Shown in pieces: positions 1-46,867 of a stretch of DNA of 64,000 bases. Source of the DNA: a virus; the IMG/VR virus record IMGVR_UViG_3300012928_000003, positions 1-64,000 of that record; one strand, 5' to 3'. The stretch's first letter is position 1. Every line of letters begins with the position of its first letter. A model generated the notes under the pieces. The model was not told where the DNA came from. It was given only the letters and a program-made list of their open reading frames with translations, and made no database searches. The position numbers and the translations under genes were made by a program.

Positions 1-1088
1 TGAATCAACTTTTAGAACAAGATGACACAGAAGCTCTTGCAGACTTGTTTGGGGCAGACAATGAAGCGGATCCTGCAATGGATGCCCAGTCAGACCCAGA
101 AGCTGTCGAAGGCGAAGAGGTATCTATTTCACCAGATGATATTGAGGCACAGATACCTGATGCTTTTATGACTGATGACGATGAGATTATACAGATTAAG
201 CTAGACGCACTCGACGATGAGATAGAAGATGAAGAAGATGGCGTATTCGGCGGCGATGATAAATTAGACGATGATGAAATTGGTGTAGATATTGAAGATG
301 AAGATGCCGAAGCTGATCTAGACCTAGACACAGGCCTTGAAGCAGATGTTGGTATGGGTGGCGACATTGGTATTGACGTTACAGGTGACTCGCCTATCTC
401 GGCCGCAGCACTTCAAGAAATAATTGCGGACGCTCTTCAGGATGTACTTTCAGAAGAAGACGAAGAGATTAATGAAGAAGAAGAACTGGATGAAGAGATC
501 GACCTTGAAGATCTTATGGAAAGAGTCCGAGTAGAAGGTGAGCCGCAAAAGTCTGGCTGGGCCGGAACACCAGAATCAATTATGAAAGAATATGAAGCTA
601 TGCTGCTTGCAAGAGAACAAGACAGCGAAGTAAAAGAAGAGAACGAGGAACTTCGCAAGAATGTTGCCGCTCTTCAAAAAGAAAACAAGACACTATCTTC
701 TGCGGCACTCAAGCTGCAGGAACAGAACAAAGAATATAAGACAGCATTTACAACATTGCAAGAAAAGTTGGAAACTATGAATGTTTCTAACGCAAAGTTG
801 CTGTATATAAACCAGGCTCTAGAAAATGCCTCCTTGAATGAGCGACAAAAGAGAAAAATTGTCGAAGCCATTTCGAAAGCCGGAACAGTACAAGAAGCAA
901 AGATTGTCTTTGAAACAATGAACGATACAGTTGTAACAACTTCAGACGTGAAGAAGGAAGCAACTTTAAGTGAAATGGTATCAAGAAAGTCAACGTTACT
1001 TGTCGCGGCTCGAAAAGAGCAACCTACAAAGGGCGCCAATCCTTTATTCAATAGAATGCAAACATTGGCAGGAATAAAGACAAAATAA
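1..1088 (+). CDS. Prohead core scaffolding protein, gp22-like (5' end outside or at window edge)
   Basis: The frame is open from the first complete codon at position 3, so the N-terminus lies at or before the window edge; bases 1-2 are TG and could be the end of the start codon. The first half is extremely acidic (runs of Asp/Glu, nt 100-530). It is followed by a heptad-rich helical segment (nt about 600-800) and a conserved-looking tail with LNERQKRKIVEAI. An acidic, coiled-coil protein directly upstream of the major capsid gene is where T4 places gene 22, the core scaffold that shapes the prohead and is later degraded by the prohead protease. Position plus composition support the call. No ribosome binding site can be judged. 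A different internal head protein is the main alternative. Confidence 0.75.
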   Translation, partial: NQLLEQDDTEALADLFGADNEADPAMDAQSDPEAVEGEEVSISPDDIEAQIPDAFMTDDDEIIQIKLDALDDEIEDEEDGVFGGDDKLDDDEIGVDIEDEDAEADLDLDTGLEADVGMGGDIGIDVTGDSPISAAALQEIIADALQDVLSEEDEEINEEEELDEEIDLEDLMERVRVEGEPQKSGWAGTPESIMKEYEAMLLAREQDSEVKEENEELRKNVAALQKENKTLSSAALKLQEQNKEYKTAFTTLQEKLETMNVSNAKLLYINQALENASLNERQKRKIVEAISKAGTVQEAKIVFETMNDTVVTTSDVKKEATLSEMVSRKSTLLVAARKEQPTKGANPLFNRMQTLAGIKTK

Positions 1089-4321: not shown

Positions 4322-5581
4322 ATGTCTGTACCAACATTAACACCAGCCAGTACCTTGTCAGCTGTTGTATTACCTGTTACAGGAGCAACATCAAATGTAA
4401 ACGAGGCGCTGCCATATAAAATATATTCTGAGGAGACCTCTCCGCTGTATTCTTCGGAATTTGTTTCTGGTGCTGTAGACCAAGTTTCTTACGTATACAA
4501 GAAGCTTGGAGGTGATATATTAGATTTAGAGATAACAGAAGGAAATGTTTATGCCGCATATGAAGAAGCGGTACTTGAATATTCATACTTAATCAATATT
4601 CATCAGGCAACAAATGTTCTTTCCGATGCTTTGGGCAACACAACTGGATCTTTTGATTCTAAGGGTAATATAGAACCCGGTACATTGTCCTCTTCTTTAG
4701 CCGGCGGACATGTCGCTCTAAAATATCCAAAATTTGATTATAGTATGACTCGTCGAATGGCAGATGGCATTGGTTCGGAAGTTGGACTAAATGGATCAGT
4801 ACAGTACTCAGCATCGTTTGATGTTCGTATGGGAGTTCAAGATTACGATTTGCAACAAATAATTTCTACTTCCGTTGATTATTCAGGATCGGTAGATAAT
4901 AAGAAAATTTTAATTAAAAAAGTATTTTATAAAACACCACACGCAATGTGGAGGTTTTACGGATATTATGGCGGATTAAATGTTGTAGGAAATTTGCACA
5001 ATTACGGACAATTTTCTGATGATTCAACTTTCCAGTTAATACCAGCTTGGCACAACAAGGCACAAGCTATGGCATTTGAAGACGCAATATACACTAGAAT
5101 GTCACACTTCTCCTACGAGCTTAGGAACAATAATTTAAGATTACACCCAATACCTTACAGCGGCGGCCCGAGAAAGATGTGGGTTGAGTTTTCTATACCA
5201 ACAGATGTTTGGGACAATGATGATGTACAGACGGACGGTGTTAACAATATGAACACGCTTCCCATAGGCAATCTTCCGTTTGGAAACATTAATTCAATCG
5301 GCAAGCAATGGATCAGAAGATTTGCATTATCGTTATGCAAAGAGATTCTTGGTCAGGTTAGATCGAAGTTTGGCAATGTGCCAATTCCAGGTGAAAGTGT
5401 AACGCTCAATGGTTCAGCTTTAATTGGTGAAGCGAAGGCCGAGCAAGACAAGTTAAGAGAAGAGTTAAAGACAACATTGGCAGAAATGACTTATAGTAAG
5501 CTAGCAGAAAAGAATGCCGGTATGTCTGATAATGTAGAGAAAGTTTTGGATAGAGTACCGAACTATATTTTTGTGGGATAA
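4322..5581 (+). CDS. Neck protein, gp13-like head completion protein
   Basis: A 419-residue protein. Two regions match what I recall of T4 gp13 (309 residues): an N-terminal stretch around residues 58-90 (KKLGGDILDLEITEGNVYAA, like the T4 segment with RLGAPIINVELT), and a C-terminal stretch with LIGEAKAEQDKLREEL that ends in IFVG, against LIEEARLEKEALREEL and ending ILVG in T4. gp13 forms the head-proximal ring of the neck after DNA packaging. The next two genes correspond to gp14 and gp15, so the neck order 13-14-15 is conserved. The extra length lies mostly in the middle. Confidence 0.85.
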   Translation: MSVPTLTPASTLSAVVLPVTGATSNVNEALPYKIYSEETSPLYSSEFVSGAVDQVSYVYKKLGGDILDLEITEGNVYAAYEEAVLEYSYLINIHQATNVLSDALGNTTGSFDSKGNIEPGTLSSSLAGGHVALKYPKFDYSMTRRMADGIGSEVGLNGSVQYSASFDVRMGVQDYDLQQIISTSVDYSGSVDNKKILIKKVFYKTPHAMWRFYGYYGGLNVVGNLHNYGQFSDDSTFQLIPAWHNKAQAMAFEDAIYTRMSHFSYELRNNNLRLHPIPYSGGPRKMWVEFSIPTDVWDNDDVQTDGVNNMNTLPIGNLPFGNINSIGKQWIRRFALSLCKEILGQVRSKFGNVPIPGESVTLNGSALIGEAKAEQDKLREELKTTLAEMTYSKLAEKNAGMSDNVEKVLDRVPNYIFVG

Positions 5582-5585
5582 TTAA

Positions 5586-6074
5586 ATGTCTGAAGATAAT
5601 AAATGGTCACAACCTGACTCTCCTCCGCCCCCACTTTTTACGGGAAAGAAGGAGAAAGACTTTGTAAAGCAAGTCAACGACGAAGTTATAGAAAGGGTTA
5701 TAGGGCAAACTGTAGTATACTATCCTATAAGCTTGGAGCATACAAGCTTTCATGATATTTATGGCGAAGCAATTGACAAGAACTTTCTTCATCCTGTAAG
5801 GATTTACGCAATGGTAAAATATGAATCACAGAATACCACCACAACACCATTAGGTGTGGATAGGATTGAAAAAATATCTGTTGCTTTTCATAAGCGTAGA
5901 CTGACAGAGGATCAAGACCTTTTTGTTAGAGAAGGTGACTTTATTCAGTATGGAGAACATTTTTACGAGATACTTAGCTTAACAGAGCCAAAGTGGCTAT
6001 TCGGTCAAGTTGAATCAAAGTTTGAAATAGCAGCGTCCTGCGTGAGAGCAAGAGAGGGTTTATTTAATGTATGA
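5586..6074 (+). CDS. Neck protein, gp14-like head-tail connector
   Basis: A 162-residue protein starting 4 bp after the gp13-like gene. It carries DIYGEAIDKNF around residue 54 and, near residues 118-140, REGDFIQYGEHFYEI and EPKWLFGQ. These correspond in order to the FGEDLKNKF and EGDLIYFPMDNSLFEI...EP...QLGQ features of T4 gp14 (256 residues). T4 gp14 sits between gp13 and the gp15 ring in the neck. The protein is shorter than T4 gp14 and lacks its C-terminal part. Tight coupling to the gp13-like gene supports joint expression. Confidence 0.8.
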   Translation: MSEDNKWSQPDSPPPPLFTGKKEKDFVKQVNDEVIERVIGQTVVYYPISLEHTSFHDIYGEAIDKNFLHPVRIYAMVKYESQNTTTTPLGVDRIEKISVAFHKRRLTEDQDLFVREGDFIQYGEHFYEILSLTEPKWLFGQVESKFEIAASCVRAREGLFNV

Positions 6075-6085
6075 GGTAAATACAA

Positions 6086-9000
6086 ATGGCATATGAATTT
6101 AGTGGTTCTATTGCGCTTGGTACAATTGTAACACAGAACGTTACAGGTGCAAGCAACCCTCAAAGTCGCCGCTCAGGTGGTAAGTTTAGCCCATCTGGTA
6201 CGAAATTGGCTGTACCTGTTTGGGTCGCCCCGGGAAGCAATTCCAAGATTGAGATATACCAATCTGGATCTTCAGGATGGGCAATGGTTGAGGACTTTAT
6301 CACTGGTACTCCTGATGTAAACAAGAACCCCGGTCAGCTGGTGTGGCTTAGTGAGACATCTTTAGCCCTCGGTCTGCGCGGCCCGGGCAGCGAGATGGGG
6401 GTGTATACATACGTATCCAGTAGTGATCATGGGTACTATGACCGAAATCACAATCAAAGCGTTAGAAGAACGCTCACCTTCGACTCCGGTGGCATGCTGG
6501 AATTTAACCCTTCAAAAACGTTAATGATAAGCTACAAACCATCCCCAGCATCCAGCGCCGGCAAAAAAACTGACGTACACATAGTTGACGATGACGGCCT
6601 CTGGCTTTCAGTTCAGGTGCCTTCTAGTACTACCGGTGAAGAATATATCGCATCGGTAGAATGGTTGTCAGATACAGATTTTGCTGTTGGCCAGCCGGCT
6701 CACACCGAAGCTGGAGGTGGCTCGAACCATGGTAAAATAAACATATATCGCACAACAGACGGAGGAAGTAGCTTTTCTAGTATAGAAACTGTTGTTGGGG
6801 AAGATGGAGACAAAATTGGTGCCTCATTACACTACCATACTGCCAGCGGCGGTTTAATAGTAGGTACAGGTACACCAACCAGCCTCGCCGCTGATGATAA
6901 TGGGGGCAATAAGTGGTATCTGTATCAATCATCATCTGCAGGGGGTTACTTGCAGGGTACGACCGATAGAACCGAATTAACTTCGACGGGCTCATGGTCT
7001 GGTAGGGTTCCTTTGGATTACAACATGCAGGCAAATGAAACCGGTGGTTCTGTGTTTGCAATTCAGACATTACCATCCTTTAATGCATCCAACGCCGAGG
7101 TTTTAGTTTGGGAGTCCGGCTCTGAGGGGTGGAAGGCTTCTGTAATAGATAACAATGTATCCTATAAGACCATAAATCCGACCTCCACTCCGCTTGTTGG
7201 TTTAAGTAAGTTGGGTTTTGTTGCAAATAATAACGACGTGTCTCCAACAAACGACGCTGCAGATAAATCATTTAGAGTACATGCACTTGGCGAAGGCTGT
7301 GAAACGTTGAGTGAATATCAACTAAGCGGTTCCATTACTTGTGGGAAAGTTACGACCACAATAATCAATGCCCGAACAAGCACCAATTCAAATGGTGGAT
7401 CAATATCTCCAGATGGAAACAGGATAGCTGTTGCGAGCCAACGCGTAGGCGGCGCCACCGCCGGAAACAATGGTATTGATTTCTTTCATTCCAGTTCAAC
7501 CGGTTGGTCTGAAGTTGTTGGCGATTTCATAGATATGAGTAATGTGGCGGGAGTTTCCGATTTCTCTCCGGTTTCAATATATTGGTTTTCAAATTCAGAA
7601 ATATTAGCTCTTAAGAGTGAAGAATTGATTTCTTTTGTCTCTAGCTCTAGTGGGTGGTCTCACAACTACACCACTGATTTTGGAACCGCTGCCGGCATGG
7701 CAAACATGTGGGTTAGTCCTGGGAAGACTGTTATCGGCATTGCGCCCGGCATTAATGTGCACGGCTCTGTATCTCACGTAAAGGATGATGTATCAGCGTT
7801 ACTAATACACAGTAGTTCCACCGGGTTTGACTCTATCAAGGTCTTGAATGATGCCCAAAATGGTTTCAACGGCGGCCGCCCAACAGCTATGGCCTGGCCA
7901 GACGAAAAGAACGTACTAGTAGGCCAACCATTCAAAAACGACGTCGGTGTGGTCACTCACTTTCGTAGCGGCAGTTCCGGATATACGTCTATAAGAGCAA
8001 CCCAAGGCAACGCATCGGCCGTCAACGGTGTGCTACGCTTTGGTTCTTTTGTATACTGGCATAGTGCAAGTAATTCAGGCATCTACGGCGCAGACAACGG
8101 CGCCGCGATACTAAACTTAATACCTTCACAATCTGATGGGTATCTTCCAGCATCAAACCCTCATACCGCCACTGGTAGGAGCTTAATTGATACTAGCATG
8201 CTTCAGTGTCAAAACGGCGCCGCGCCACCAAAAGTATTAGGCACTACAATAAGTATAGATCCTGCGAATCCAAACAGAGTAGTTGCGTCCACTATAAGGC
8301 AAACAAACGATACTGCCCAAGACGGCCGAGTTTACTTTTCACTAGAAACTGGATCTTTGGGGTGGAAAGTAAAACAAATTAACCCTGATGGAGATGGCGT
8401 CGGGTTGGATACTGCGAACTCCTTCAATCCAAGTCAGCTTACACCTGGAGCTTCAAGGTATGTAACGTTCAAGGAAGGCAACGCAGAAGCATCGGACAAT
8501 AACAAAATTACAATATATGAGACCGGTCTGCCACTTCTGCCACTTGGGGGCTCCGGAGGCGGCGGAGGCGGAGGCTCCAGTCCAACTGTGAGCATAACAC
8601 CAGATTCTATAACTTTATCAGAGACAGGGACAACGGCGAATGTTGTTGTGACTTTGAGTGAGGACCCTGGGTCAAACACGGTTACTGTTTCTCCTTCAGG
8701 TCTTGATGCTACAGAGGTGTCAGTTAGCCACGCAACACAATCTTTAACAACGAGTAACTGGGATTCCGGTGTCACATTTGTTTTCACTGGCCAGGATGAT
8801 CTTATTGATGATGGTAATCAAACATTCAATGTTACGTTTACAACAACTTGCTCCGGAGACTCCTCGTTTGATAATCTTACAGAGACTTTATCTGTTACAG
8901 TACAGGATGATGATACAGCAGGTTTCACGATTGGCACCGGATCGTTAAATTTATTAGAAGGTGAAAGTGGCACAATATCAGTTGTTCTTACCGCTCAACC

Positions 9001-11329
9001 CTTAGGAGACGTGGTGATTAGTAGTTCACTGGCATCAATATTTAATGGCAGAGCAACAATTTCACCAAGTCAGCTGACATTTACTAATCTCAACTGGAAT
9101 ACAGCCTCTAATGTTACGGTGTCTGCAATTTCAGACCGTATTGACAATGGAGATGTAACAGGCAGCGTTACGTTTAGCATTGTCCCAGGCTCTTCATCGG
9201 ATGAGTATGACTCAGTACTAAACCAAACTGCATCTTTAATTGTACGAGATGATGATACAGCAGGATTTACTATAAGCCCAAGTTCACCCATAAATATTAA
9301 CGAGGGGGATAGTGCTACGATATCAGTTGTGTTAAATTCCCAGCCTACGAGTAGTGTAACTATTGACGTATCAGCCGCTGTAGATTGGAACTCTAGAGCC
9401 TCATTGTTGCCAACTAGTGTAACTTTTACAACCTCATCCTGGGAAACAGCTCAAGATATAACTATAACGACAGTACATGACAATCAAATAAATGGTAATC
9501 AATCTGATACTGTTACTTTTAGTGTAAATGATGGTTCAACTAATGATACAAAGTTCAAGGCAGTTTCTGACCAAACGATATCTGTAACAGTTGTGGATAA
9601 TGATGAAGCGGGTTTTGTGTTAATCCCGGGGTCTTTTATAAGTTTGACAGAACAAGGAGCATCCCAGACGCTATCAGTAAAGCTAAAATCTCAACCATCA
9701 CAGAATGTCACGGCCTCACTAACTGGCATGGATGCGACGGAAGCATCTGTAGTTCCGTCAGAATTGGTCTTCACACCTTCAAATTGGAACGAAGTACAGC
9801 CGCTGGTATTTACAGGAGTGGACGACGATATTGCAGATGGAAACCAGCAGTTTACCGCTACTTTGACCGCGGTCACAGGTGACAGTAATTTTTCTGGTAA
9901 TTCTGTCTCAATTACTGTTTTAAACGTAGATGATGATGTTGATACTCCTTCTGCCCCAAAGGAATCAACAACTAAATCGGGAACCAATCAAACAAGCCCA
10001 GAAGATAAAGATATGGGGACAACCGAAAGAATCGGAAACACAGAAGTTGCCAGAACCGTAGCAGACACTTTGCCTAGGAAACTACATTTCGATCCATCAA
10101 CAATAGAAAATATTGATAGATCTGTTTTGAGGTATTTAACAAAGCTTAATTTATTCTCTGATACCAATGATGGTTGGAGAAAAGTTCCAATTATTTGGGG
10201 AACGGCAGAGCGCGCCTACCAAGTAAAACATAATAAGGACGTTCGAGACCAACAGGGTATGTTAAAATTACCTTTAATTTCTATAAGAAGGACATCTCTG
10301 ACTAAAGACATGCCAAGTAAAGGAGTCTTTCAGGGAACATCACCGGCCTATAATGACGAACAAGGTGGTTCTTTGGCCGTGGGTAGAATGATTTATCAAG
10401 ATAAGACAACTAAGTTTGCAAATGCGGATGCAGCGCGCTTACACAACCAAAGCAATTACCGCAGACATAATCAAAAGGTTGTATATAGAACAGTTTCTGC
10501 TCCTATGCCTGTTAATGTATCTGTTATGTATGAAATAACAATAAGAACAGAATATCAGCAACAAATGAATCATTTAATATTGCCTTTTATTACAACTCCT
10601 GGTACAATAAATTATGTAAGGTTGTTCGATGGTGAGCATAGGTATGAAGCATTTATACAAGGAGATATGCAAAATAATGATAACTTATCAGATTTTTCCT
10701 CTGATGAAAGGAAATTTGAAACAAAAATACAACTAAAAGTTATTGGATATTTGATAGGGGAAGAAAACAACAGAGAGAAGCCACATTATGCCATAAGGGA
10801 GAACGCGGTGGAAATAAAAATACCAAGAGAGCGCATTTCTCTTGCAGAAATACCAGAAATGGAGTATGGTAGATATTATGGACTAGGTGGTATTCCTGAA
10901 GACCAATTAAAAGATTCGAACCCATTCTTTTCGAGAAGTAGAAAAGACCCTAGATTGCCATTTTTCTTCTCGAATGTTCCAGCAGTAGGAGCCGGACTGG
11001 CAGCCGACGTCGTAGCAGGTGGAAGTTCAAGTAGTACCACTGATGTTTCAACTAATCTTGTCACTAAAGGCAATTTTTCAGAAACTTTGGCAGATAATAT
11101 GGTGGTTAGAGAACTGGTTAAAGCAGATGATACCCCACCGCCAAGTCCGGCAAACCAGGTTGTTGTAACATTAGCGACAATCCGAGAAAACACAGAGTCT
11201 GTTTTCGTGAATGGTATGATTCAGGCTCTAGGTTCAGGAAACGACTATACAATAAGTGGAAATACAATTACATTTACTTATGATTTAGTTGAGTCAGATT
11301 CAGTTTATGTTACCTATATAAAGGGATAG
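6086..11329 (+). CDS. Giant neck adhesin: propeller-like and Calx-beta-like repeats fused to gp15-like tail terminator
   Basis: A 1747-residue protein. Residues 1 to about 815 form two related halves (second begins near 408), each starting with a SGSI...G segment and FSPSG or ISPDG, with SSGW-type motifs recurring as in beta-propeller blades. A Gly-rich linker near 820 leads to about four Calx-beta-like repeats (to about 1300), each ending in DDDTAGF or a similar sequence. From about Met1310 to 1590 the sequence resembles T4 gp15: VPIIWGTAERAYQVK, then MYEITIRTEYQQQMNHLILPF, then KFETKIQLKVIGYLIG, in the same order as in T4 tail terminator gp15. It directly follows gp13- and gp14-like genes. 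The last 40 residues carry a fibre-type VNGMIQALGSGNDYT motif. The protein would place long adhesins at the tail top or neck. The fusion reading is inference from one unbroken ORF. Confidence 0.8.
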   Translation: MAYEFSGSIALGTIVTQNVTGASNPQSRRSGGKFSPSGTKLAVPVWVAPGSNSKIEIYQSGSSGWAMVEDFITGTPDVNKNPGQLVWLSETSLALGLRGPGSEMGVYTYVSSSDHGYYDRNHNQSVRRTLTFDSGGMLEFNPSKTLMISYKPSPASSAGKKTDVHIVDDDGLWLSVQVPSSTTGEEYIASVEWLSDTDFAVGQPAHTEAGGGSNHGKINIYRTTDGGSSFSSIETVVGEDGDKIGASLHYHTASGGLIVGTGTPTSLAADDNGGNKWYLYQSSSAGGYLQGTTDRTELTSTGSWSGRVPLDYNMQANETGGSVFAIQTLPSFNASNAEVLVWESGSEGWKASVIDNNVSYKTINPTSTPLVGLSKLGFVANNNDVSPTNDAADKSFRVHALGEGCETLSEYQLSGSITCGKVTTTIINARTSTNSNGGSISPDGNRIAVASQRVGGATAGNNGIDFFHSSSTGWSEVVGDFIDMSNVAGVSDFSPVSIYWFSNSEILALKSEELISFVSSSSGWSHNYTTDFGTAAGMANMWVSPGKTVIGIAPGINVHGSVSHVKDDVSALLIHSSSTGFDSIKVLNDAQNGFNGGRPTAMAWPDEKNVLVGQPFKNDVGVVTHFRSGSSGYTSIRATQGNASAVNGVLRFGSFVYWHSASNSGIYGADNGAAILNLIPSQSDGYLPASNPHTATGRSLIDTSMLQCQNGAAPPKVLGTTISIDPANPNRVVASTIRQTNDTAQDGRVYFSLETGSLGWKVKQINPDGDGVGLDTANSFNPSQLTPGASRYVTFKEGNAEASDNNKITIYETGLPLLPLGGSGGGGGGGSSPTVSITPDSITLSETGTTANVVVTLSEDPGSNTVTVSPSGLDATEVSVSHATQSLTTSNWDSGVTFVFTGQDDLIDDGNQTFNVTFTTTCSGDSSFDNLTETLSVTVQDDDTAGFTIGTGSLNLLEGESGTISVVLTAQPLGDVVISSSLASIFNGRATISPSQLTFTNLNWNTASNVTVSAISDRIDNGDVTGSVTFSIVPGSSSDEYDSVLNQTASLIVRDDDTAGFTISPSSPININEGDSATISVVLNSQPTSSVTIDVSAAVDWNSRASLLPTSVTFTTSSWETAQDITITTVHDNQINGNQSDTVTFSVNDGSTNDTKFKAVSDQTISVTVVDNDEAGFVLIPGSFISLTEQGASQTLSVKLKSQPSQNVTASLTGMDATEASVVPSELVFTPSNWNEVQPLVFTGVDDDIADGNQQFTATLTAVTGDSNFSGNSVSITVLNVDDDVDTPSAPKESTTKSGTNQTSPEDKDMGTTERIGNTEVARTVADTLPRKLHFDPSTIENIDRSVLRYLTKLNLFSDTNDGWRKVPIIWGTAERAYQVKHNKDVRDQQGMLKLPLISIRRTSLTKDMPSKGVFQGTSPAYNDEQGGSLAVGRMIYQDKTTKFANADAARLHNQSNYRRHNQKVVYRTVSAPMPVNVSVMYEITIRTEYQQQMNHLILPFITTPGTINYVRLFDGEHRYEAFIQGDMQNNDNLSDFSSDERKFETKIQLKVIGYLIGEENNREKPHYAIRENAVEIKIPRERISLAEIPEMEYGRYYGLGGIPEDQLKDSNPFFSRSRKDPRLPFFFSNVPAVGAGLAADVVAGGSSSSTTDVSTNLVTKGNFSETLADNMVVRELVKADDTPPPSPANQVVVTLATIRENTESVFVNGMIQALGSGNDYTISGNTITFTYDLVESDSVYVTYIKG

Positions 11330-12118: not shown

Positions 12119-15100
12119 ATGTCGAAATATTATTTATGGAACATGGCCAAAAAAGGTTTGGCAAAGTATGTTTCAGTTACGACAGGATCGATTGATGCTA
12201 ATACCACCAGTTATCCATATACTGATGGTGGCCAGAATACATATGGTGAGCAAGACCAATATATGACGGCCCTTTCTCCAAATGGAGAAATGATCTTTCG
12301 TTTTTCTAGGCAAGTAGGAAAAACTGGACCAGTCAGTTCAATTGGGACTGACCGTTACCACGCTTCTTATTTTGCGATCCACCAGTCGCAATCATCTATT
12401 TCAGGCGGTTATCACTTTGGTAACGGCATGGACAGTGATTCTGTTATATTTAGTTCGTCTTGGTCGTCTTCTCGAAATGACCAATATGGTGATCAGAACT
12501 TCGGCGCAACATGGCTTTCAGATACAGAAGTTGCAATCATATCAGGCCAGCCTGGTGGCAGCTACACCATGAACACCCACAATCTTTCGGGGGCTGACTT
12601 TCCGTCATTTGATTCAACCGGTGCACATGGGGTATTCTTTATCTTGAGCGGTTCCGGAACAGATTGGAATGTTGTGTTCTGGTCTACTGGGTCTTCTGAT
12701 TACAACCCAAGTGATTCTAATCTTTACCCAATAAGAATGGATCAATTTGATTATGTTGTACCGAACAATAGGTATACCACCGCTTCATCGGATTTGATAT
12801 TTGTTTCTAACAAGGGTAGATATCAAGAGTCTAACCGTGTAAATCAGGGTGTTGTTTTCAAGAAAACAGGTGGCACATGGGCCTGGCACTCTAACGTCTT
12901 CTTTGATGGTCAAACATCGCGCCAAACAAATCGCGTTGTGCAAGAGGCGAATTGGCTTGGTGATACTCAAGACGTCCTGGGTATAAGATACAGTGATAAT
13001 TCTGGACCTCATTTCCGCGTCATGACAGGCGGCGGCTCTGGAGCCCAGAAGTATTCAACCGCGGGACTAGCCTCGGGAATATCCAACGCTTTTCATCATT
13101 TTGCGTGGGACCCGTATAGTGATAGATTCTTGGGCAATAAGTTCGGAATTCTTTACGTGTTCAATTCGGGATCGGATTGGATAGGAGACATCGTGGGTGA
13201 TAATGCAAATGCCCATGAGAGGGAAATTTTACTCGATAGGTATACTGGCTCGGATATGGGCCCCGATCTTGCAGATAGCGATCCAGACGGCACTCAGCTT
13301 AGATGGAAATTTACTGACGATTACACTGGTATCTTGTACGCGACAAAGAACATCAGGAGTCATCTTTGTTTTGTTGAGTCGGGATCCCTCGGTTGGCACG
13401 GCCACGGATTAAATGGTAACACAGCAGCACAAAACGGGTTTTATTATGAAGTTCAAAACTCTAGCTATACAGGTTGGGACGGGGGACATGATGTGTTTAA
13501 CACAACTGATTCTGATGGCCGAACCCAAATTATAATTTTGGCTGATGACCGATTTGACTCGTGGTCTTGGAACACTGAACATGGCGGTTCCGGTGATGTT
13601 CTCTTCACAGGAGAGGGCACTAGCACTAGTTATAGTTATGTTACCGGGAGAAACATCATTGTTGACTTAAATGCTTATGATGCAACCCCAGACGACTTTC
13701 CGGAGTTAACGTCTTACAAGACTGATGAAGCAACCACATACGAAGCTAGTTCTTCTTATACTAGTGGGCTAGATTGGACTGAGGTTTATGCCAGTTATGA
13801 CTCGGCAACAACTTCCACCAATGACAATGTTAGTAGAGGTGGTAGCTTCAGCCCAAGTGGGGATCTTTTGATAGTTCCTACGCCTTACTCTAATCGTCCG
13901 AGTGATCTTACCATTAATTATGGTTTTGATGTTTATGCATCTTCCAGTAGTGGTTTCGCTTACAGCTACACTATCGATGAGGGAGTCCACTCCGCGATGG
14001 CAACCTCGATTCAGTGGATATCAGAAACAGATTTTCTGACGGCCTATGGCGGGAACAAATTCCCACAACGGTTTGTTTCTAGTTCTAGTGGCTGGTCGCA
14101 AAGCGCTCTTTATGAAAATGCAGATGTCGAAAACGGTGATTATAACGCAAGAAATAACTTGCGCTATGCAAATACAATTTACCTTTCTCCTGATAAGAAA
14201 GCTTTTGTACTTTATAGTAATAATACCGCCGCCCACACAAGAAATAGAACTTGGGCTTCATTTGTTTCAAACAGTGCTGGCTCGAATGGCTTTAAAGGCT
14301 ACGCGTATAACAATGAGGCTTATCATAATTTTGTTTACGCGGGTGAAGACAGTGCTACGGACAGGTACAAGCTAGTCGGTGCTCACTACGATGATGGAAC
14401 CATGAACCTCGGTTTGATTAATAAGACTACAGGCCACGACACAGGTGGTGGCTTGTGGAAGGGCCTTGCTGACGCTCATAACATAATCGGTAAAACCAAC
14501 GGTCATGACCCGGGCGCATTCTTGTTCTACCATTCTGGCAGTGATACTTTATTTTATAGCGGTAGAGAATCAACATCTAATGGAAAGCAAATAATCATAG
14601 AAGCAAAAATGAACCCTCACGGTGTTTTGTTGTATGATTCCGGTTCAACTTCCTCGCCTGGAGGCAGGTATGTAAATGAGTGGTTGATTCCGGCTGTTAT
14701 TAAGGCTGATGAAGATGAGAACGACTATAAGCGTCTTGCTCATGTTGCAGCTGCAGCATTCCCAATTAGCAGTTCTGTAGGATTGGGCAGATTTGATGAC
14801 GCTGATGCATCTCATAATTATAGAGATTATGCTGATTCTGGCGTCATGAGAGTGTTTGAAGACCCTAACAATGGGAACAGATTTTTTGTAGCAAGCCAAT
14901 ATGACAATGGCTCAAATCCGTTCAGATTGAAGGTACTAGAAAGAGGCTCAGCAGGCTGGAAGATGACACGTATTCGAGAGTGGAATTATGCTTCAGCAAC
15001 ATCAACTGCAGGTAGGACCCAAAACATACGTTTTGATATGTCCGCAAACGGTGATCTTGTTGTTCCTGCAACAGGCTCAAATACTGGTTTCGCTATTGCT

Positions 15101-18100
15101 AGACTAGTAGCACCACCACCAGCAGATCCGGACTTGGCCTCAGTTGTTTCTTCGGCCATAACCGCTGCCGATGGTGGCACAGTTAGTGCCGGTGGTAAAA
15201 CAAGTGCACCTCGTGCAAAAATTACCATTCCAGCAAACGCTATCGCAAGTGATACCACTTTTACAGTCGACACCTCAACGTCGTTCACACCAGGTGGGCA
15301 AGGTCTAGGTGTAAATGGAAACGAGGCATTAAGCCCGATTGTTAGGTTGACACCACATGGTACAAAGTTCAGTAAAGCAGTTACAGTTACGTTTAATTTG
15401 ATTGGTTCAGCAGCGAGTTCGTGCCCTGATAATGCACAGCTCTGGAAGAGAAACAAAGTAGACTCTTCTTGGTACCCGGTACCAGCAAATCTTTACAGTT
15501 GTTCAGGAGGTACAATAACACTTTCCACAACTCAATTTAGCGATTATATTGTAATAGGAGGACAAAAAGTGGCTAGAACAAAATTAAATAACGTCCAGTT
15601 GGCAAGACTGGAAAATCAAAACAAGGTATTGCCTGAGGCTATTAATATTACAGGCTCAAGCGAAGACTATATCACTACTATAGGTGACACTGATGCATTT
15701 CTTGTACAATCAGGAAGTGGTTTCACGGCACCTATTTCAGCATCTGCAATGGCAACATATTTTGCTAGTGCAGTTGCAGCAACATCAATTGATGTTTCAG
15801 AAGAGACAGGCAATGCAGATCACAGAATTATCTTTATCAGTGATACTTCTGGCGATGCAGCCGGTTCAACTCTTTTGGCTGATGATGACTCTCTGTTGTT
15901 CAACCCAAGTACAAACACACTTAAGGTAGGTGCTTTGGATGTTGGAGACGGTAACATTTCAAATGTTGGCGTTTTAGAGGCAGATACAATCCAAAGCGAT
16001 GCGGATGGTACCGGATTAAATGTTAACTTTGACGGCGACACAGGTACCAACAAGTTGACATTAAAGGACGGCTTGGCTGATGCTTTGAGCATCACCGACG
16101 GTTCTGCTGATTTCATGGTGTTCAATACAACTGCTGAAACCATCACTGTTGGAAAGAATTCCACGTTTGCAAGCACGACAATTGCCGACCTTGGTACTGT
16201 AACAACTGCAGACATTGACGGTGGTACAATGGATGGCGTAACATTAGGTGCAACAAACGTAATTGATGTTACTGCAATTAACCTCGACGGCGCATCAGCG
16301 CTCGGCAGTGCAGCGATGGCACAGGTTGACTTGTTGCTTATCGACGACGGCGGCGCAGGTACCATGAAGTCTGTTACTTTCTCGAATTTTGAGGATTCAA
16401 TTTTCGGCAACGTATCTGGCGACGTCACAATCGCAGCAGGCGGTGCAGCAACCATGGCTGCAGCTCAGACAAACATCACATCATTGCTTGCAACCGACAT
16501 TAAGATTGGTGAAGACGATGAAACAAAGATCGATTTTGAAACAGCAGATGAGATTCACTTCTATGCAGCTAATGCAGAGCAGGTTTTCGTTGCTGATGGT
16601 GTCTTTGGCCCACAAACAGACAGTGATGTTGATTTGGGTACAACCGGTGCTCGCTTCAAGAGCGCATTTATCGATGCTATCACAGTAACTGATGATGTTG
16701 TAGTCGGCGGTAACTTGACTGTTCAAGGTACAACCACAACGATTGACACAACAAACCTTCTTGTAGAAGATAGCTTGATTGAAATCGCTCGCGGCGATGG
16801 AGGCTCTCGTGCATCCAATGCAGGCGCTGGTTTGTATATCTCTGGTTCTGTAATCGGACACGATATTAGCTTGAAGGCAGCTGCAGACGGCGGCCGCTTG
16901 AAGGTTAGTGGTTCAACCGCTGGTTTTGATGTTCAAGTTGGTGGCGACTATGCAATCAATGGCACTTCAGTGTTGACTGCAACTACTCTTGGTAGTGCTG
17001 TTGTAAATTCAAGCTTGACATCAGTAGGAACTTTGGCTTCAGGACAGATTAGTTCTGGTTTTGGAAACGTTGACATCGGTTCGAGTACACTTGACGCAGG
17101 TGCAACCACGCTTTCTTCTGCAAAAGTTTCTGACTTGACAGACGGTCGTGTCGTCTTGGCAGGTACAGCAGGTGAACTTGAAGACAGCGGAAACCTTACT
17201 TTTGATGGAACAACGCTTACAGCAACTTCTTATGCTGGTGATGGTTCAGGCCTTACCGGTGTTGGTGCAGCAGTAACCGGCTCAGCAAATGAAGATTTTG
17301 CTTTGCAGATACCATTTACTTCTGGATCATCTACAGCAGGTTCTTTCTTTATTGATAGTGGTTCATTAAGCTATAACCCTTCATCTAATAGACTGATCGT
17401 TCCACAGCTTTCTGCTTCAAGCAACGTACATGTTGGCGCACTTTTCATAAGTGGTTCACAAGTCGGTGCGACAGCTGCAGAGCTTAACATTATGGACGGT
17501 GGCACAACAGCCGCAACGGTTACACTTGCTAATAGTGACGGTGTTGTTATAAATGATGGTGGCACTATGAAACAGGCACTTGTAAGTGACTTCTCAACAT
17601 ACCTTGCTGGTGACGGCTTGGGCGTTTCTTCTAACGTTCTTGTGGTGAATGTTGATGATTCTGGTATAGAAATAGACTCTGATACTCTTCGTCTTAAGGA
17701 TGACGGCGTTTCAGCTGCAAAACTTAATTCAGATGTTGCTGGTACCGGCCTTGAACAACACACTGATGGGTCAATCAGAATTGCTGCAGCTGCAGCTGGT
17801 GACGGGCTTTCAGGTGGCGCAGGCAGCGCATTGGCACTTGACCTCAACGAGCTTTCTGCAGCATCAGTAAATGTTGCTGCTGATAGTATCGCTATTGTTG
17901 ACGCAGATGACAATTCTTCTAAGAAGGAAAGCATCGCGGATCTTGTTGGCGCTACTGCTGGTGCAGGTTTGGCGGCTACAAGCGGCGTATTGGCTGTTGT
18001 AAACGCTACAAATGGTGGTCTTTCCGTAGCAGCTGATGATGTGAAACTTGACATGAATGATCTTGCAGCAGCTTCTGTTGATGTTTCTGCAGACTCAATT

Positions 18101-28139: not shown

Positions 28140-29209
28140 TGTATAAAGGGGGCGAGACTAAGACTTTAAAAGAAGAATACAAAGAAAGAAGTAAATATAA
28201 ACTTGGAGCTACATCTCAATATAAAAATAAGGTTATAGATACTTGGCATCGATACCCAAATTATGGCTTCTTTAATAGCAAATATGAGGTGGTTACTCCA
28301 AACGTAGGAGATAATTACGAAAACTTAGTTCAGTTTGGAGATTATGCAGACCCCTCTCAGCGCGCTTTGCCTTTTGTTGTCACTGCATTCGATGAATTGA
28401 GAGCAGTTATTTTAGAGCGAGCCCAGGCCCCAGGTTTTTCTATACCAAGTTACTTTGGAGACTTTTCTCCAAAAAAATCATATGAAAATTTTCAAACAAA
28501 GTATAATCAATATTTTCAAAGTACAGTGTCAAAGTTCGAAAAAGCATCCGCATCTGACCCGGAAAGCTTTTTACAAGAAATTGTAGTAAATGCGAATGTT
28601 TTTCCAATGACTCAGAGTGGTTTTGCGCTTTCTCGACACTGTCCCATTTCTACAACTGGCTTGGCTATTGAGCTTGCGACCTTATCTCATGACATTGATT
28701 CTATAAAAGGGGAACTTATCAATAAGGAAAATTATTCTTGTTTTGTTGAAGATGCTTATGCACTTGGCTTTTATGTGGATAAGAACAATCCGTGGAGACT
28801 GATAGCTAATATGAACTCTCAGGCTATGCAATCTAGAATAGAGCTTCACCGTCCCGGAACATCTGCAGAGAACATATTGCAGAGACTTTTCCACAGGAAA
28901 GTTCACTTTGAAGATATACAGAGTATTTACAAGCTTTTTTTGAGATTTAACTTGACAAGTGAGCAGATTTTATCTTATACTATAAAGGTAAGAATGGCAG
29001 AAATAGGCATGCCCTTGGATATGTATACAAAAATAAACGAAGAAGTGCAAAATATATTTAAAATATATTCGCCAAACTATCCCTCTGATCCGTTCAAGGG
29101 TTCTGCGTCCATATTAGCCAATTACTGTTCTGAATTTTTAAAAGAAATATACGAAAAAAAGGCGCGCATAGATTCCCACATGAGAACAAGAATAAAGGAT
29201 ATTTTGTGA
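28139..29209 (+). CDS. Probable virion structural protein, unrecognised
   Basis: A 356-residue protein that starts on the last base of the previous stop codon (TAATG). It is rich in Phe, Tyr, Asn and Ser, with a helical C-terminal half. It has no signal peptide, membrane segment or enzyme motif. It closes the virion block and overlaps the DNA polymerase gene by 4 bp. A baseplate or tail-associated role is inferred from position only. Confidence 0.55.
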   Translation: MYKGGETKTLKEEYKERSKYKLGATSQYKNKVIDTWHRYPNYGFFNSKYEVVTPNVGDNYENLVQFGDYADPSQRALPFVVTAFDELRAVILERAQAPGFSIPSYFGDFSPKKSYENFQTKYNQYFQSTVSKFEKASASDPESFLQEIVVNANVFPMTQSGFALSRHCPISTTGLAIELATLSHDIDSIKGELINKENYSCFVEDAYALGFYVDKNNPWRLIANMNSQAMQSRIELHRPGTSAENILQRLFHRKVHFEDIQSIYKLFLRFNLTSEQILSYTIKVRMAEIGMPLDMYTKINEEVQNIFKIYSPNYPSDPFKGSASILANYCSEFLKEIYEKKARIDSHMRTRIKDIL

Positions 29210-30336
29210 TCTTACAAACTTTGGATATAAAAGACAACTGCCGCGGCATTTTCCACAATAATGAGTTTCTTTTTGAGAACACAAAGCGCATTGCTCATGA
29301 TTATGATGTGGCGTGGAAGCACTCTCCAATGCTAGAGGACGAGAACTTTCGCTATCTTTACCTTTCTTTAAAGGACGAGGATCTATCCCCTTACTGTTCC
29401 GACCCGGACCTTTTCTTGGCGTATAAGAGAAAAATGGAATCACACCGCAAAGCCGCGATTACTGCAAAGGTCAGTTTGCAAGAGCAGTGTTTTTATGACC
29501 TATTGCCTGAGCATCAACTTTTAAACTGGTTTACAATAAAGCAGCAAGCACTAGAGAATCTTAATAAAGCAATCGAAAAGCAAAGTGACTATGATATATT
29601 ACACAAAATTCATGTATTAACCACCAACATTGCACAACAAAATATACATTTTGGAACAAAGATTGGAAGAGTTTTATATAATATTTTTGGATCTGCAACC
29701 GGTAGGTTAACCACTATGAAAACTTCAGTGCCAGTTCTCACTTTAAAGAAAGAACAGAGGGAACTACTAAAGCCACAGAACGATGCTTTCGTTGAGCTTG
29801 ATTTAAACGCCGCAGAGATAAGAATGATGATGGCCCTTTCAGGTAGAGAACAACCTCAGGGTGATATCCATGAGTGGGTAGTGGAGAATGTGTTTGATGG
29901 TCAAATCGAACGCTCAAAAGCCAAGGTGGAGTTATTCGCTTGGCTGTATAATCCTTCGAACTCGAAAAGTCGATTCGACAAATTTTTTTCGCGGCAAATT
30001 TTTCGAGATTTTTACTTTTCTGAAGACAGGATACTGACAACCCCATTTGGCAGGAATCTAGTAGTGGAGGAGAGAAAGGCGCAGAATTACTTACTACAAT
30101 CCACTACGTCAGATCAAGTGCTTGAAAATGCCTACAAGATTCAAAAAATGTTAAAGGGCAAAAAATCTACTATAGCATTTACACTCCATGATTCGATTAT
30201 ACTTGACATGTCCCAAGAAGATGTTATAATGTTACGAGACATAAAATCACAATTTGAAAAAACCAGATGGGGTGATTTCGCTAGTACGTGCAAAATTGGA
30301 AAAACATTTGCAAATCTAAAGGAGTTGAAACTTTGA
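29206..30336 (+). CDS. Miniature family A (Pol I-like) DNA polymerase
   Basis: A 376-residue protein starting at GTG 29206 (GTGA overlap, AAAGGA upstream). Family A landmarks are in order: LPEHQ (thumb), FGSATGRLTT (TATGRLSS type), motif A VELDLNAAEIRMM with the catalytic Asp, GDIHEWV, motif B reduced to RSKAKVELFAWLY, then TPFGR and motif C FTLHDSIILDM. There is no 3'-5' or 5'-3' exonuclease domain and the finger region is very short. E. coli Klenow is about 600 residues. The normal Gly residues of the O-helix (FGxxYG) are replaced, so activity is uncertain. A DnaE-type replicase lies 14 kb downstream, suggesting a repair or gap-filling role. Confidence 0.8.
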   Translation: MILQTLDIKDNCRGIFHNNEFLFENTKRIAHDYDVAWKHSPMLEDENFRYLYLSLKDEDLSPYCSDPDLFLAYKRKMESHRKAAITAKVSLQEQCFYDLLPEHQLLNWFTIKQQALENLNKAIEKQSDYDILHKIHVLTTNIAQQNIHFGTKIGRVLYNIFGSATGRLTTMKTSVPVLTLKKEQRELLKPQNDAFVELDLNAAEIRMMMALSGREQPQGDIHEWVVENVFDGQIERSKAKVELFAWLYNPSNSKSRFDKFFSRQIFRDFYFSEDRILTTPFGRNLVVEERKAQNYLLQSTTSDQVLENAYKIQKMLKGKKSTIAFTLHDSIILDMSQEDVIMLRDIKSQFEKTRWGDFASTCKIGKTFANLKELKL

Positions 30337-43259: not shown

Positions 43260-43443
43260 AGAAACATACAACTTGATGCCGGCACTAATAAAAGCCCACG
43301 CAGGTATGCCAGATAGCTATATTAACTTGACAACAGACCAGAAAAGGTTTATAATAGAGATGTTCGATATTGATAGGGAAGCAGTAAAAGCAACCCTTAT
43401 GGAAACTCTAGAAGAAATGAAAGGTTTAATTGATGAACTCTAG
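43240..43443 (+). CDS. Small helical protein, unrecognised
   Basis: A 67-residue protein. The start is TTG 43240 or GTG 43246; GGAGG at 43231-43235 leaves 4 or 10 bases respectively. It is mostly helical and acidic (TLMETLEEMKGLIDEL at the end). It overlaps the polymerase III gene by 11 bp, so translation of the two is probably coupled. Confidence 0.5.
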   Translation: MKVKNIEETYNLMPALIKAHAGMPDSYINLTTDQKRFIIEMFDIDREAVKATLMETLEEMKGLIDEL

Positions 43444-46400
43444 AACTGAAAGTTCAATCCCATTCGTTGGACTCCATGCGCATTCTGTCGCCGGCTCACC
43501 ATTCGATGCACTCGGATACCCCCCAGAGCATATGGATTTTGCATATGAAAATGGTATGGACGCGCTGGCTCTTACTGATCACGGTAATATGAACGGCCTC
43601 GCATGGCAGGTTCTCCACGCCAAGAAGATGAAAAAAGCTGGCAAGGAGTTCAAGCCTATCTTTGGCTGTGAAGCGTACTTCATTCCTTCCGTTGCGAAAT
43701 GGAAGGAAGAGTATGAAGAAATTAAGAACGCTTCCAAGAAAAAGTCAGACTATGAGGCAGACAACTCTGGCACTACCGTAGAGGACGAAGGTGCTTCCAA
43801 GAAGAAGATTAAGTCTGTTCTCAACCGTCGACGCCATCTTATTTTGCTGGCTATGAACCAGACTGGTCTACAGAACATTTTCAAGATGATCTCTCGCTCT
43901 TACAGTGGCGACAACTTTTATCGTTATCCTCGCGTTGACTATGCCCTCCTCAAGAAACACAACGAAGGCGTCATTGCTGCTTCGGCTTGTCTCGGTGGCG
44001 TTTATGCTGGCAACTACTGGGAGAACCGAGACATCGGCCCGGATGCCATACTCGGAGCAATGCGCCAGACTACACAAAAGATGCAGAACATCTTCGGTGA
44101 CCGATGGTATGGTGAACTACAGTGGAATAATGTACCAGAGCAACATGAACTTAACCGTTACATCATTCAAATGCACCAAGAGTTTGGCATTGACCTTATT
44201 TCCACAGCGGATTCTCACTACTATAATGCAGATGTGTGGAAAGACCGAGAACTTTACAAGCGATTAGGTTGGCTTGGTAAGGGTAAACCAGACTACTTAT
44301 CTGACGAGCTTCCTGTATCAGTTGAAGAGATCGGTTACGAGCTTTACCCAAAGAATGGTGACCAGATGTTCGAATCATACAAGAAGTATTCAGAAGAATG
44401 TGGAGCAAAGTATGATGATGAATTGGTACTTAACTCGATCAAGAGGACACACCAGATTGCGCACGAGAGGATTGAAAACTTCCTACCAGACAACACAGTT
44501 CGTTTGCCCGACTTTGTGGTCCCGGAGGGCTCAACTGCAGGCCAGACCTTGGCTGCCCTTTGTGTGGAAGGTTTACGGTCCCTCGGGCTCGCTAACAAAC
44601 AAGATTATGTTGATAGGCTTAAACACGAGGTCAATGTTATCGAAGATCGAGGGTTCTCGAAATATTTTCTAACAATGAAAGCGATTGCTGATGTTGCAGT
44701 TACTAGGCAGCTTGTTGGTGCTGGTCGTGGTTCTGCTGCTGGCTCACTTGTTGCATATGTTCTAAACATTACCCAGGTCGACCCAATCAAGTATGGGCTT
44801 CAGTTTGAAAGGTTCTTGACCAAGGGCGGCTCGGGCTACCCAGATATTGATTATGATGTCTCCGATCCAATGGTTCTCAAAGAAGAGCTTATTGATGAGT
44901 GGGGTGATGATTCTGTAGTGCCAATTACAAATTGGAACACGCTGCAGCTTCGCTCCCTCATCAAGGACATCTCTAAGTTCTATGGTATTGAATTTACTGA
45001 GGTCAACAACGTGACTAGTAAGATGGTCTATGAGGCTACGCCGCTTGCAAAGAAGAAGCATGGGATCACAGCGGGTGTGTATACGCCGACCTTTGAAGAG
45101 TTGATGGAGTTCTCAGAATCTTTGCAGAGTTTCTTGCAGAAGTACCCGCACATCAAGACTCACATTGAGAAACTATATGGTCAGACACGTTCTGCCTCTC
45201 GACACGCAGGTGGTGTTGTTGTGGGTGAGAACCTGGATCAGTGGATGCCTCTAATCAACTCAGGAGGAGTTAGACAAACACCCTGGTCGGAGGGCCAGAA
45301 CGTGCGTCATCTTGAGCCGATGGGTTTCATCAAGTTTGATATCTTGGGCCTTGCTTCACTGCGAATGCTTGAAGGTGCTATAGAACGCATTCTCCGCCGC
45401 CACCACGGAATGACCAATCCAACATTCGCAGACATCAAAGAATACTACGATAAAAACTTGCACCCAGAGGTTATCGACCTAGAGGACAAGGATGTCTGGC
45501 AAAACATTTTCCACAAAGGCAAGTGGGCAGGCATTTTCCAGTTCACAGAAACTGGAGCACAGTCATTCTGCAAGAACGCAAGGCCTGACAACATCATTGA
45601 CTTGGCTGCTATTACTTCTATCTATCGCCCAGGTCCACTGTCTGCAAATGTAGATAAGAAATACATCGGCGCAAAGGAAAATCCAGAAGACATTGAGTAC
45701 GTCAACAAGGTTGTTCGAGAAGTGACGGAAGAAACTTACGGCTTCCTTATTTTTCAAGAGCAGATCGCAATGCTAGCCCACAAGCTGGGCAAGGATCTGA
45801 CATTGGACGAAGGTAACAAGCTCAGAAAACTACTTACTAAGAAGGGTACTGGTGCCGCTTCAGCAGAGAAAGACAAGATCTTCGACAAGTTCCGCAGGGG
45901 TTGTGTCGAGAAAGGAATGAGAGACTATGAAGCAAGAGAACTTTGGGAAACTTTTGAATACTTTTCAGGATATGGCTTTAACAAGTCACATGCTGTATCC
46001 TACTGTGTACTATCCTATCAATGTGCTTATCTTCTTAACTACTATCCGGCCGAGTGGCTAGCAGCCTTCCTTGATAAGGAGCCGGAGACTAGAAAAGAAA
46101 GAGCAATCGCAACAGCGAAGTCGCTAGGTTATAACGTAGAGCCTCTCAATGTAAACACATCAGGTGTGAACTGGGAGATAAGTCAAGATGGAAAGACTCT
46201 AATTCAACCGCTGTCATCCATCAAGGGTTTAGGTATCAAAGCTATTGAGCAAATCATTGAACACAGACCTTTCAACACTATCGAGGAGTTTTTGTTCCAC
46301 GAGAAGATCGTGTACTCTAAACTAAACAAAAAGTCAATTCACGCCCTGACCTTATCACAAGCAATGAATGAGCTTATCGACGATAGGTTCACCGGACTTG

Positions 46401-46867
46401 CCCACTTCTATGCGGCCGTAGCAGAAGACAGGCCAAGAAAAGAGAAGAACTTGCACGATAACATTGAGAAGTATGCACCCGAAGGTGACTTTACCGAGGA
46501 AGAGAAGCTTGAGTACTTGGTGAATCTTACAGGTGTGTTCCCAATCAATGCGGTTGTGACGTCCCGGGTTAGGCAGAAATTGGATGAATTATATGTCCCC
46601 CCAATTTCAGAATTTGACCCGGACCTCGGTGTTACTTGGTTCATACCTCGCGAGTGTAAACTCAAGAAGTCAAAGAACGGCAAGAATTTTTATGTTGTTA
46701 AGGTAATAGATGACAACAACGAGACCACGGTAATCAGGTGTTGGGGTGTCGATCCGGAGAAAGATATTATACAAATTAACAGACCTTACATGGCCAGGCT
46801 AAACTATAACCAACAGTGGGGATTTTCCACTTTTAGTATGAGAAAGATGTTTAAACTATTAGCATAA
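43433..46867 (+). CDS. dnaE: DNA polymerase III alpha subunit (DnaE-type)
   Basis: A 1144-residue protein from ATG 43433 (E. coli DnaE is 1160). The N-terminal PHP domain shows GLHAHSVAGSP and ALTDHGNMNG. The catalytic region has GAGRGSAAGSLVAYVL (near residue 427), the metal-binding Asp pair in YPDIDYDVSD (near 468) and the third Asp in FIKFDILGLASLRML (near 634). GYGFNKSHAVSYCVLSYQ is the usual fingers segment, and a C-terminal OB-like region follows. It is probably the main replicase of this phage, replacing the family B gp43 of T4. No separate clamp loader or clamp is visible in the window. Asn-Arg-Arg-Arg and Lys-rich insert at residues 90-130 is unusual. Confidence 0.94.
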   Translation: MNSRTESSIPFVGLHAHSVAGSPFDALGYPPEHMDFAYENGMDALALTDHGNMNGLAWQVLHAKKMKKAGKEFKPIFGCEAYFIPSVAKWKEEYEEIKNASKKKSDYEADNSGTTVEDEGASKKKIKSVLNRRRHLILLAMNQTGLQNIFKMISRSYSGDNFYRYPRVDYALLKKHNEGVIAASACLGGVYAGNYWENRDIGPDAILGAMRQTTQKMQNIFGDRWYGELQWNNVPEQHELNRYIIQMHQEFGIDLISTADSHYYNADVWKDRELYKRLGWLGKGKPDYLSDELPVSVEEIGYELYPKNGDQMFESYKKYSEECGAKYDDELVLNSIKRTHQIAHERIENFLPDNTVRLPDFVVPEGSTAGQTLAALCVEGLRSLGLANKQDYVDRLKHEVNVIEDRGFSKYFLTMKAIADVAVTRQLVGAGRGSAAGSLVAYVLNITQVDPIKYGLQFERFLTKGGSGYPDIDYDVSDPMVLKEELIDEWGDDSVVPITNWNTLQLRSLIKDISKFYGIEFTEVNNVTSKMVYEATPLAKKKHGITAGVYTPTFEELMEFSESLQSFLQKYPHIKTHIEKLYGQTRSASRHAGGVVVGENLDQWMPLINSGGVRQTPWSEGQNVRHLEPMGFIKFDILGLASLRMLEGAIERILRRHHGMTNPTFADIKEYYDKNLHPEVIDLEDKDVWQNIFHKGKWAGIFQFTETGAQSFCKNARPDNIIDLAAITSIYRPGPLSANVDKKYIGAKENPEDIEYVNKVVREVTEETYGFLIFQEQIAMLAHKLGKDLTLDEGNKLRKLLTKKGTGAASAEKDKIFDKFRRGCVEKGMRDYEARELWETFEYFSGYGFNKSHAVSYCVLSYQCAYLLNYYPAEWLAAFLDKEPETRKERAIATAKSLGYNVEPLNVNTSGVNWEISQDGKTLIQPLSSIKGLGIKAIEQIIEHRPFNTIEEFLFHEKIVYSKLNKKSIHALTLSQAMNELIDDRFTGLAHFYAAVAEDRPRKEKNLHDNIEKYAPEGDFTEEEKLEYLVNLTGVFPINAVVTSRVRQKLDELYVPPISEFDPDLGVTWFIPRECKLKKSKNGKNFYVVKVIDDNNETTVIRCWGVDPEKDIIQINRPYMARLNYNQQWGFSTFSMRKMFKLLA

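Follow-up and report, generated by a model that had tools for sequence, protein, structure and literature searches.

The window is a stretch of 64,000 nucleotides (positions 1–64,000 of IMG/VR record IMGVR_UViG_3300012928_000003, a genome fragment of 66,618 bases) from a marine virus of bacteria with a contractile tail. A cluster of neck genes lies on its forward strand. The first of these (4322..5581, +) encodes a gp13-like head-tail adaptor of 419 residues, identified by a phmmer match to T4 gp13 chains (E 2.4e-8) and with PHROG 211, head-tail adaptor Ad2 (E 6e-11). The second (5586..6074, +) encodes a gp14-like head-closure protein of 162 residues that is 93% identical to its counterpart in the related contig L112. 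Its family reaches PHROG 'head closure Hc2' in two of eight relatives, weakly (E 0.03–0.06). A first-pass annotation had named both genes; the sequence bears out gp13, and gp14 is assigned by its position between gp13 and gp15. With that assignment, the gene order gp13–gp14–gp15 is kept as in T4.

The third gene of the cluster is an open reading frame of 1747 codons without interruption (6086..11329, +), which starts with ATG and has a Shine-Dalgarno-like GAGGT 5 nt before it. A gene for a 110-residue protein follows on the 3′ side, and then a separate gene for a fibre-like protein of 2125 residues (12119..18496, +), tail sheath gp18 (18607..21462, +; PHROG 23, tail sheath, E 2e-70), which is the partner of gp15 in T4, and tube gp19. 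One stretch of the fibre-like product (564–646) resembles the start of the fibre in contig L035 (E 4e-5), and its body resembles the fibre of contig L036 (E 3e-65). The TTG listed as the gp18 start at 18607 has no ribosome-binding site, and an ATG eight codons later (MAARKFKF) is the likelier start. Elsewhere the window holds a GroEL-like chaperonin gene (52841–54409; PHROG 5725, E 7e-142) and two separate open reading frames with DNA polymerase family matches (29206–30336, E 3e-16; 43430–46867, E 2e-219).

Parts of the fused chain

The 1747-residue product is predicted to consist of two propellers, a beta-sandwich stalk, a gp15 domain, a linker and an XD2-like module, in that order. This agrees with the first-pass annotation, which had described one unbroken frame leading from adhesin-like repeats into a gp15-like C-terminus; the disordered linker and the XD2-like module beyond gp15 had gone unmentioned.

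The two propeller units span residues 1–408 (6086..7309, +) and 409–815 (7310..8530, +). A unit HMM, built from the window, L031 and L112 units and thus including the sequences it was run on, places two units in the window (1–407 and 410–815) and two whole units plus one cut unit in contig L031. Unit 1 is 63% identical to L112 over the first 153 aligned residues. An AlphaFold model of residues 409–1310, made from 8 sequences, is of middling confidence (mean pLDDT 71.7, mostly 50–80 in unit 2). Its first 400 residues match beta-propellers (VIA Z 20–23), and unit 2 matches the Sec12 propeller with Z 23.3 and rmsd 3.7 over 315 residues. The 27 strands of the modelled unit suggest a propeller with seven blades.

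Four tandem repeats of 107–122 residues follow (residues 837–943, 944–1057, 1058–1173 and 1174–1295; 8594..9970, +). They are modelled as Ig-like beta-sandwiches (pLDDT about 85), with Foldseek matches to Ig-like, cadherin and ciliary sandwich domains, and would probably form a stalk. The predicted make-up of the whole arm is beta. The first-pass annotation had called these regions propeller-like and Calx-beta-like; the propellers stand, and Calx-beta membership is not supported, since only the fourth repeat touches Pfam family PF03160 and scores 16.8 bits where 27 are required. VIA-align rows for this model cover mainly its first 418 residues, and a missing Calx-beta row there is no evidence either way. 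In a Pfam scan of the arm, no adhesin family scored above its cut-off. Ig-like domains on phage structural proteins, reportedly the subject of work by Fraser in 2006 that PMC5259590 cites, are likewise beta-sandwich additions to virion proteins. They are, however, single domains or small sets of them carried by proteins of the head or tail, whereas the arm here runs to 1300 residues and includes propellers.

Between the arm and the gp15 domain lies a linker (residues 1296–1331; 9971..10078, +) that is of low confidence at the ends of both models and contains Met1310. The gp15 tail (sheath) terminator domain itself occupies residues 1332–1599 (10079..10882, +). Pfam PF16724 (T4-gp15_tss) scores 23.6 bits against residues 1310–1747 (E 3e-5), slightly below the curated cut-off of 25; the gp15 of the relative L188 exceeds it (26.4 bits), and the family is found at E 0.001 or better in 8 of 55 relatives. 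PHROG 227, tail sheath stabilizer, matches the fusion frame at E 0.02. A second AlphaFold model, of residues 1310–1747, was built on 55 sequences from the window and viral contigs; in most of the gp15 core its pLDDT is about 90. Foldseek against the PDB ranks T4 neck chains and T4 gp15 at the top (E 2e-8 to 7e-6); a single chain from phage P1 falls between them. VIA-align gives T4 gp15 (4huh_E) Z 13.6, rmsd 3.8 and 161 aligned residues, another T4 gp15 entry Z 13.3, and the runner-up, the pyocin R2 collar, Z 11.2. Sequence identity to T4 gp15 in these fold matches is only 12–15%. A profile search of the sequences of solved structures with the gp15 and gp14 profiles returned nothing at E 1, and a search for gp15 in prokaryote genome contigs gave 29 pattern matches, of which none was confirmed. 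The predicted structure supports assigning residues 1332–1599 to the T4 gp15 family, as the first-pass annotation had proposed; the unrelated C-terminal fold that it had named as refuting its reading was not found. T4 gp15, described as Tc2 of type 2 necks (PMC4362835), is alike in fold and in gp13–gp14–gp15 gene order. However, it is a free chain of 272 residues, whereas here 1331 residues precede the domain and an XD2-like module follows it.

Met1310, earlier taken for the natural start of an older, separate gp15, fared less well. No ribosome-binding site precedes it at position 10013 (the best match is 3 nt), and an internal start that would release a free gp15 is not supported. The internal Met1723 of the L031 protein likewise has a match of 3 nt only. 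A TTG at residue 1730 of that protein has GGAG 2 nt away; it was not counted as a start.

Behind gp15 comes a linker that is predicted to be disordered (10883..11098, +; pLDDT below 50 to about residue 1657), and then the XD2-like, putative docking module (residues 1672–1746; 11099..11323, +), found by structure comparison and by a module profile search. The modelled module matches residues 187–250 of the CBA120 tailspike TSP4 (VIA Z 9.3, rmsd 1.6, 64 residues, 20% identity) and has the XD2 jelly-roll fold in the prediction. Those TSP4 residues are described as XD2, and the XD2 domains of TSP4 and T4 gp10 as docking partner trimers (PMC8825819). The likeness is one of fold, and the docking role is known from the phage T4 and CBA120 proteins; there the domain is carried by a tailspike or baseplate protein, whereas here it is carried by a tail terminator. 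A module profile derived from gp15 matched gp15 in 26 of 195 loci and a non-gp15 frame in two only (L031 and L037). Sharing of the module by gp15 and a fibre is therefore no general rule, and we set aside the idea that a neighbouring fibre generally docks through a matching XD module.

Conservation and probable origin of the fusion

The same fusion is present in an independent contig. In L031, propellers, five repeats, gp15 and the module lie in a single frame of 2132 residues whose left end is open at the contig end. The metagenome that yielded L031 also yielded L112, a contig that breaks off early in a frame of this kind, which there begins directly behind gp14. A repeat-rich protein on a metagenomic contig might reflect a chimeric assembly or a frame in decay. 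The same design in L031 and L112 contradicts this, and we give it hardly any credence: L031 is independent, is 39–50% identical to the window protein, and keeps the same architecture with low dN/dS.

Comparison of the window with L031 or L112 yields ratios that are only rough because dS is high. They are 0.02 for gp14 (93% identity), 0.05 for gp19 (92%), 0.07 for the gp15 core (79%), 0.10 for gp18 (69%), 0.13–0.25 for the propellers (63–68%), 0.20 for the beta-sandwich repeats (40%) and 0.30 for the linker with the XD2-like module (45%); for gp13 (79% identity) dS is saturated. The fusion frame is under purifying selection, and the arm evolves faster than gp15 and the neck.

Sister phages show the parts arranged differently. 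The gp13 proteins of L035 and L036 are 81–84% identical to that of the window, and their gp15 proteins are free (272 and 417 residues). In both, the gene that encodes the fibre, downstream of gp15, opens with the propeller (E 4e-48 and 7e-42), so that it is N-terminal in these fibres as in the fusion. The downstream fibre gene of L113–L115 also begins with a propeller, 28% identical to that of the window. Relatives with a separate gp15, which the first-pass annotation had envisaged, therefore exist (L035, L036 and L117 among them). A tree of 158 gp15 domains, made by a quick method that leaves the order inside the group open, places the window, L031 and L036 together with support 88; L036 and L031 are also the gp15 rows nearest to the window. 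Because the sisters combine a free gp15 with a propeller that starts the downstream fibre gene, these sequences point to shuffling that probably moved the adhesin-bearing part of a fibre onto the front of the tail terminator gp15. Neck proteins are described as being among the phage proteins shuffled in recent times (Smug et al. 2023, PMC10684548).

Extensions on neck proteins of related loci

We surveyed 344 loci including the window, having dropped L001, which is part of the window's own record; a number of contigs are in the set twice. The loci were picked because they resemble gp13, gp15 or the propeller, and the fusion counts therefore give no population frequency. The survey holds 363 gp15 frames, corresponding to 287 distinct proteins. 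Three of these carry at least 120 residues before gp15: the window protein, that of L031, and one found in L087, L116 and L128 alike.

L128 and L117 are near-identical phages that form a natural pair with and without an N-terminal fusion on gp15. A 1402-nt segment of L128 (6580–7981) takes the place of 28 nt in L117 (2747–2774), between flanks that are 92.5% and 97.6% identical. The insert comprises an 87-residue frame and a front domain fused to gp15, with about 373 residues before gp15. The free gp15 of L117 is identical to that of L128 (100% over 283 query residues). Read by eye, the front domain looks like a beta-helix; it has no match in Pfam. A search of 50,697 phage records with the propeller and the L128 arm returned no match.

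Extensions behind gp15 are found in 44 of the 273 distinct proteins with a closed C end, counting those of at least 100 residues. The gp15 of L247 has 1522 residues behind the domain in a single chain of 1794; in L249 and L047 the contig end cuts the extension off after 551 and 420 residues, which are therefore lower bounds. Two gp15 genes occur in 25 of 338 gp15-bearing loci, often one short and one extended. Tandem pairs were seen in L047–L049, L051, L054–L056, L113–L115, L144, L145, L247, L249, L254, L258 and others, the second copy often having a C-terminal XD-like module or a collagen-like or adhesin-like extension.

The other two neck proteins are also extended. Five of 231 distinct gp14 proteins are double gp14 chains with 544–2114 further residues (L063 11261–17590, L134 1716–6596, L278 925–7542, L279 103–7539 and L275 5840–8566), nine more have 101–194 residues behind the domain, and the gp14 of L188 is preceded by 767 residues that match the FG-GAP propeller weakly (15.1 bits, cut-off 23). 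An adhesin-like module of about 1200 residues is common to the gp14 fusions of L063, L134 and L279 and the gp15 fusion of L247 (41–43% identity), on gp14 in one clade and on gp15 in another. An internal insert of 102–141 residues is present in 12 of 271 distinct gp13 proteins (L112 3442–5058, L144, L169, L170, L207, L211, L215, L221, L247, L249, L254 and L258). In T4, a gp13 domain (190–239) is described as binding fibritin (PMC12270204).

The neck proteins look like an exchangeable chassis for adhesins. We give an even chance to the broader reading that, in this large, mostly marine T4-like group, the rings of the neck serve generally as a platform for adhesins, by which the virion would hold on to cells or particles at the end of the tail nearest the head. 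On this reading the arms sit on the N-terminus of gp15 (window and L031; L128) or on its C-terminus (L247); on gp14 they are C-terminal (L063, L134, L278 and L279) or N-terminal (L188), and gp13 has internal domains.

Possible roles of the arm

We consider it rather likely that the fusion is a neck protein with two jobs, combining a gp15 ring with an N-terminal adhesin arm from a fibre gene and a docking XD2-like module. T4 gp15 is described as hexameric and seated on the final ring of the sheath, close to the fibritin whiskers (PMC3004832); gp13 is reported to bind fibritin, and a C-terminal arm of gp14 to grip gp15 (PMC12270204). By analogy, the gp15 domain would form a ring of six-fold symmetry at the end of the sheath, joined to gp14 and the head. 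The N-terminal 1300 residues would hang off this ring as an arm exposed at the neck, with a beta-sandwich stalk and a two-propeller tip. If the fold match to the T4 hexamer carries over, there would be six adhesin arms and twelve propellers at the top of the sheath. The propellers would bind a target on the host or in the host's environment, and the flexibly tethered XD2-like module would dock another fibre or spike. The arm would have come, by domain shuffling, from a fibre gene of the type that lies just downstream, fused before gp15. Points that weigh against this reading are the low identity to T4 gp15, the Pfam score a little under its cut-off, the middling confidence of the propeller model and the rarity of N-terminal fusions (3 of 287 distinct proteins).

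Binding of a host or particle surface would be the likeliest job of the arm, because the same propellers begin fibre genes. The main rival, which we think unlikely, is a neck whisker or collar that would stabilise the neck, hold the tail fibres while they are folded or act as a sensor of conditions, in the manner of T4 fibritin. Fibritin sits at the gp15 ring and handles the long tail fibres (PMC3004832), and the presence of an XD2-like module hints that a further fibre is contacted. Moreover, the neck fibres of cyanophage A-1(L) are described as having a carbohydrate-binding module without host binding (PMC10966104), which means that an arm at the neck may have a job other than receptor binding. 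However, fibritin is described as a separate, slender trimeric fibre, whereas this arm is made of the propellers that begin the sisters' fibre genes, and it changes faster than the neck.

Two further readings concern what becomes of gp15. The fused protein might be an accessory paralogue, with a plain gp15 encoded elsewhere forming most of the ring or mixing with it. The loci with one short and one extended gp15 favour this, as does the size of the window's record, a 66.6-kb fragment. Yet the double copies in whole records are tandem, and none adjoins the fusion. In the 66,618-base record gp15 is matched once with Pfam and once with the 55-sequence profile, which detects both tandem copies in relatives. 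The separate gp15 elsewhere that the first-pass annotation had named as refuting its reading was thus not found in this record, a result that is not final because the record is a fragment. The records of six relatives (156–201 kb) have gp15 at a single place each, in one or two tandem copies, and a hidden second copy is therefore unlikely; we regard the accessory paralogue as improbable. Alternatively, the polypeptide might be cut in the linker at residues 1296–1331, giving an ordinary gp15 and a separate adhesin. Both models are of low confidence there, but in L031 the parts stay fused although the linker is a different one, rich in Gly and Pro, so that no shared cleavage site is seen, and the other neck-fusion designs also keep their parts in a single chain. 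Cleavage seems to us quite improbable.

Two-job gp15 would differ from the neck appendages already described. T4 fibritin is not known to carry propellers. Its whiskers and their gp13 anchor are similar in being fibres at the neck bound to ring proteins, but fibritin is described as a separate trimeric protein held non-covalently, whereas the arm here is covalent with gp15. The neck passage structure of 936 lactococcal phages bears carbohydrate-binding modules, one of which bound host cells (PMC6669499), but it is described as a separate collar protein, in a siphophage, rather than a terminator fusion. The neck fibres of A-1(L) (PMC10966104), the collar spike gp40 of XM1 and the decoration proteins of phage 812 are neck appendages on contractile-tailed phages, in each case described as separate proteins on ring proteins. 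Full-text searches of open-licence PMC papers, judged by titles and abstracts, turned up no terminator-adhesin fusion.

In the literature compared, then, neck appendages are separate proteins bound to the rings; here a long adhesin-like arm is covalently fused to the protein of the ring that ends the sheath, and relatives show other designs on gp14 and gp15. If gp15 does carry such an arm at the neck, an assembly part would double as a host- or surface-binding part. This points to an additional gripping site, well away from the tail tip that usually does the gripping, and the fusion predicts neck arms that electron microscopy could look for. The fusions also show where phages tolerate large insertions without breaking the tail. 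If the neck rings do serve generally to carry adhesins, the assembly machine of these phages would itself incorporate a second organelle of adhesion.
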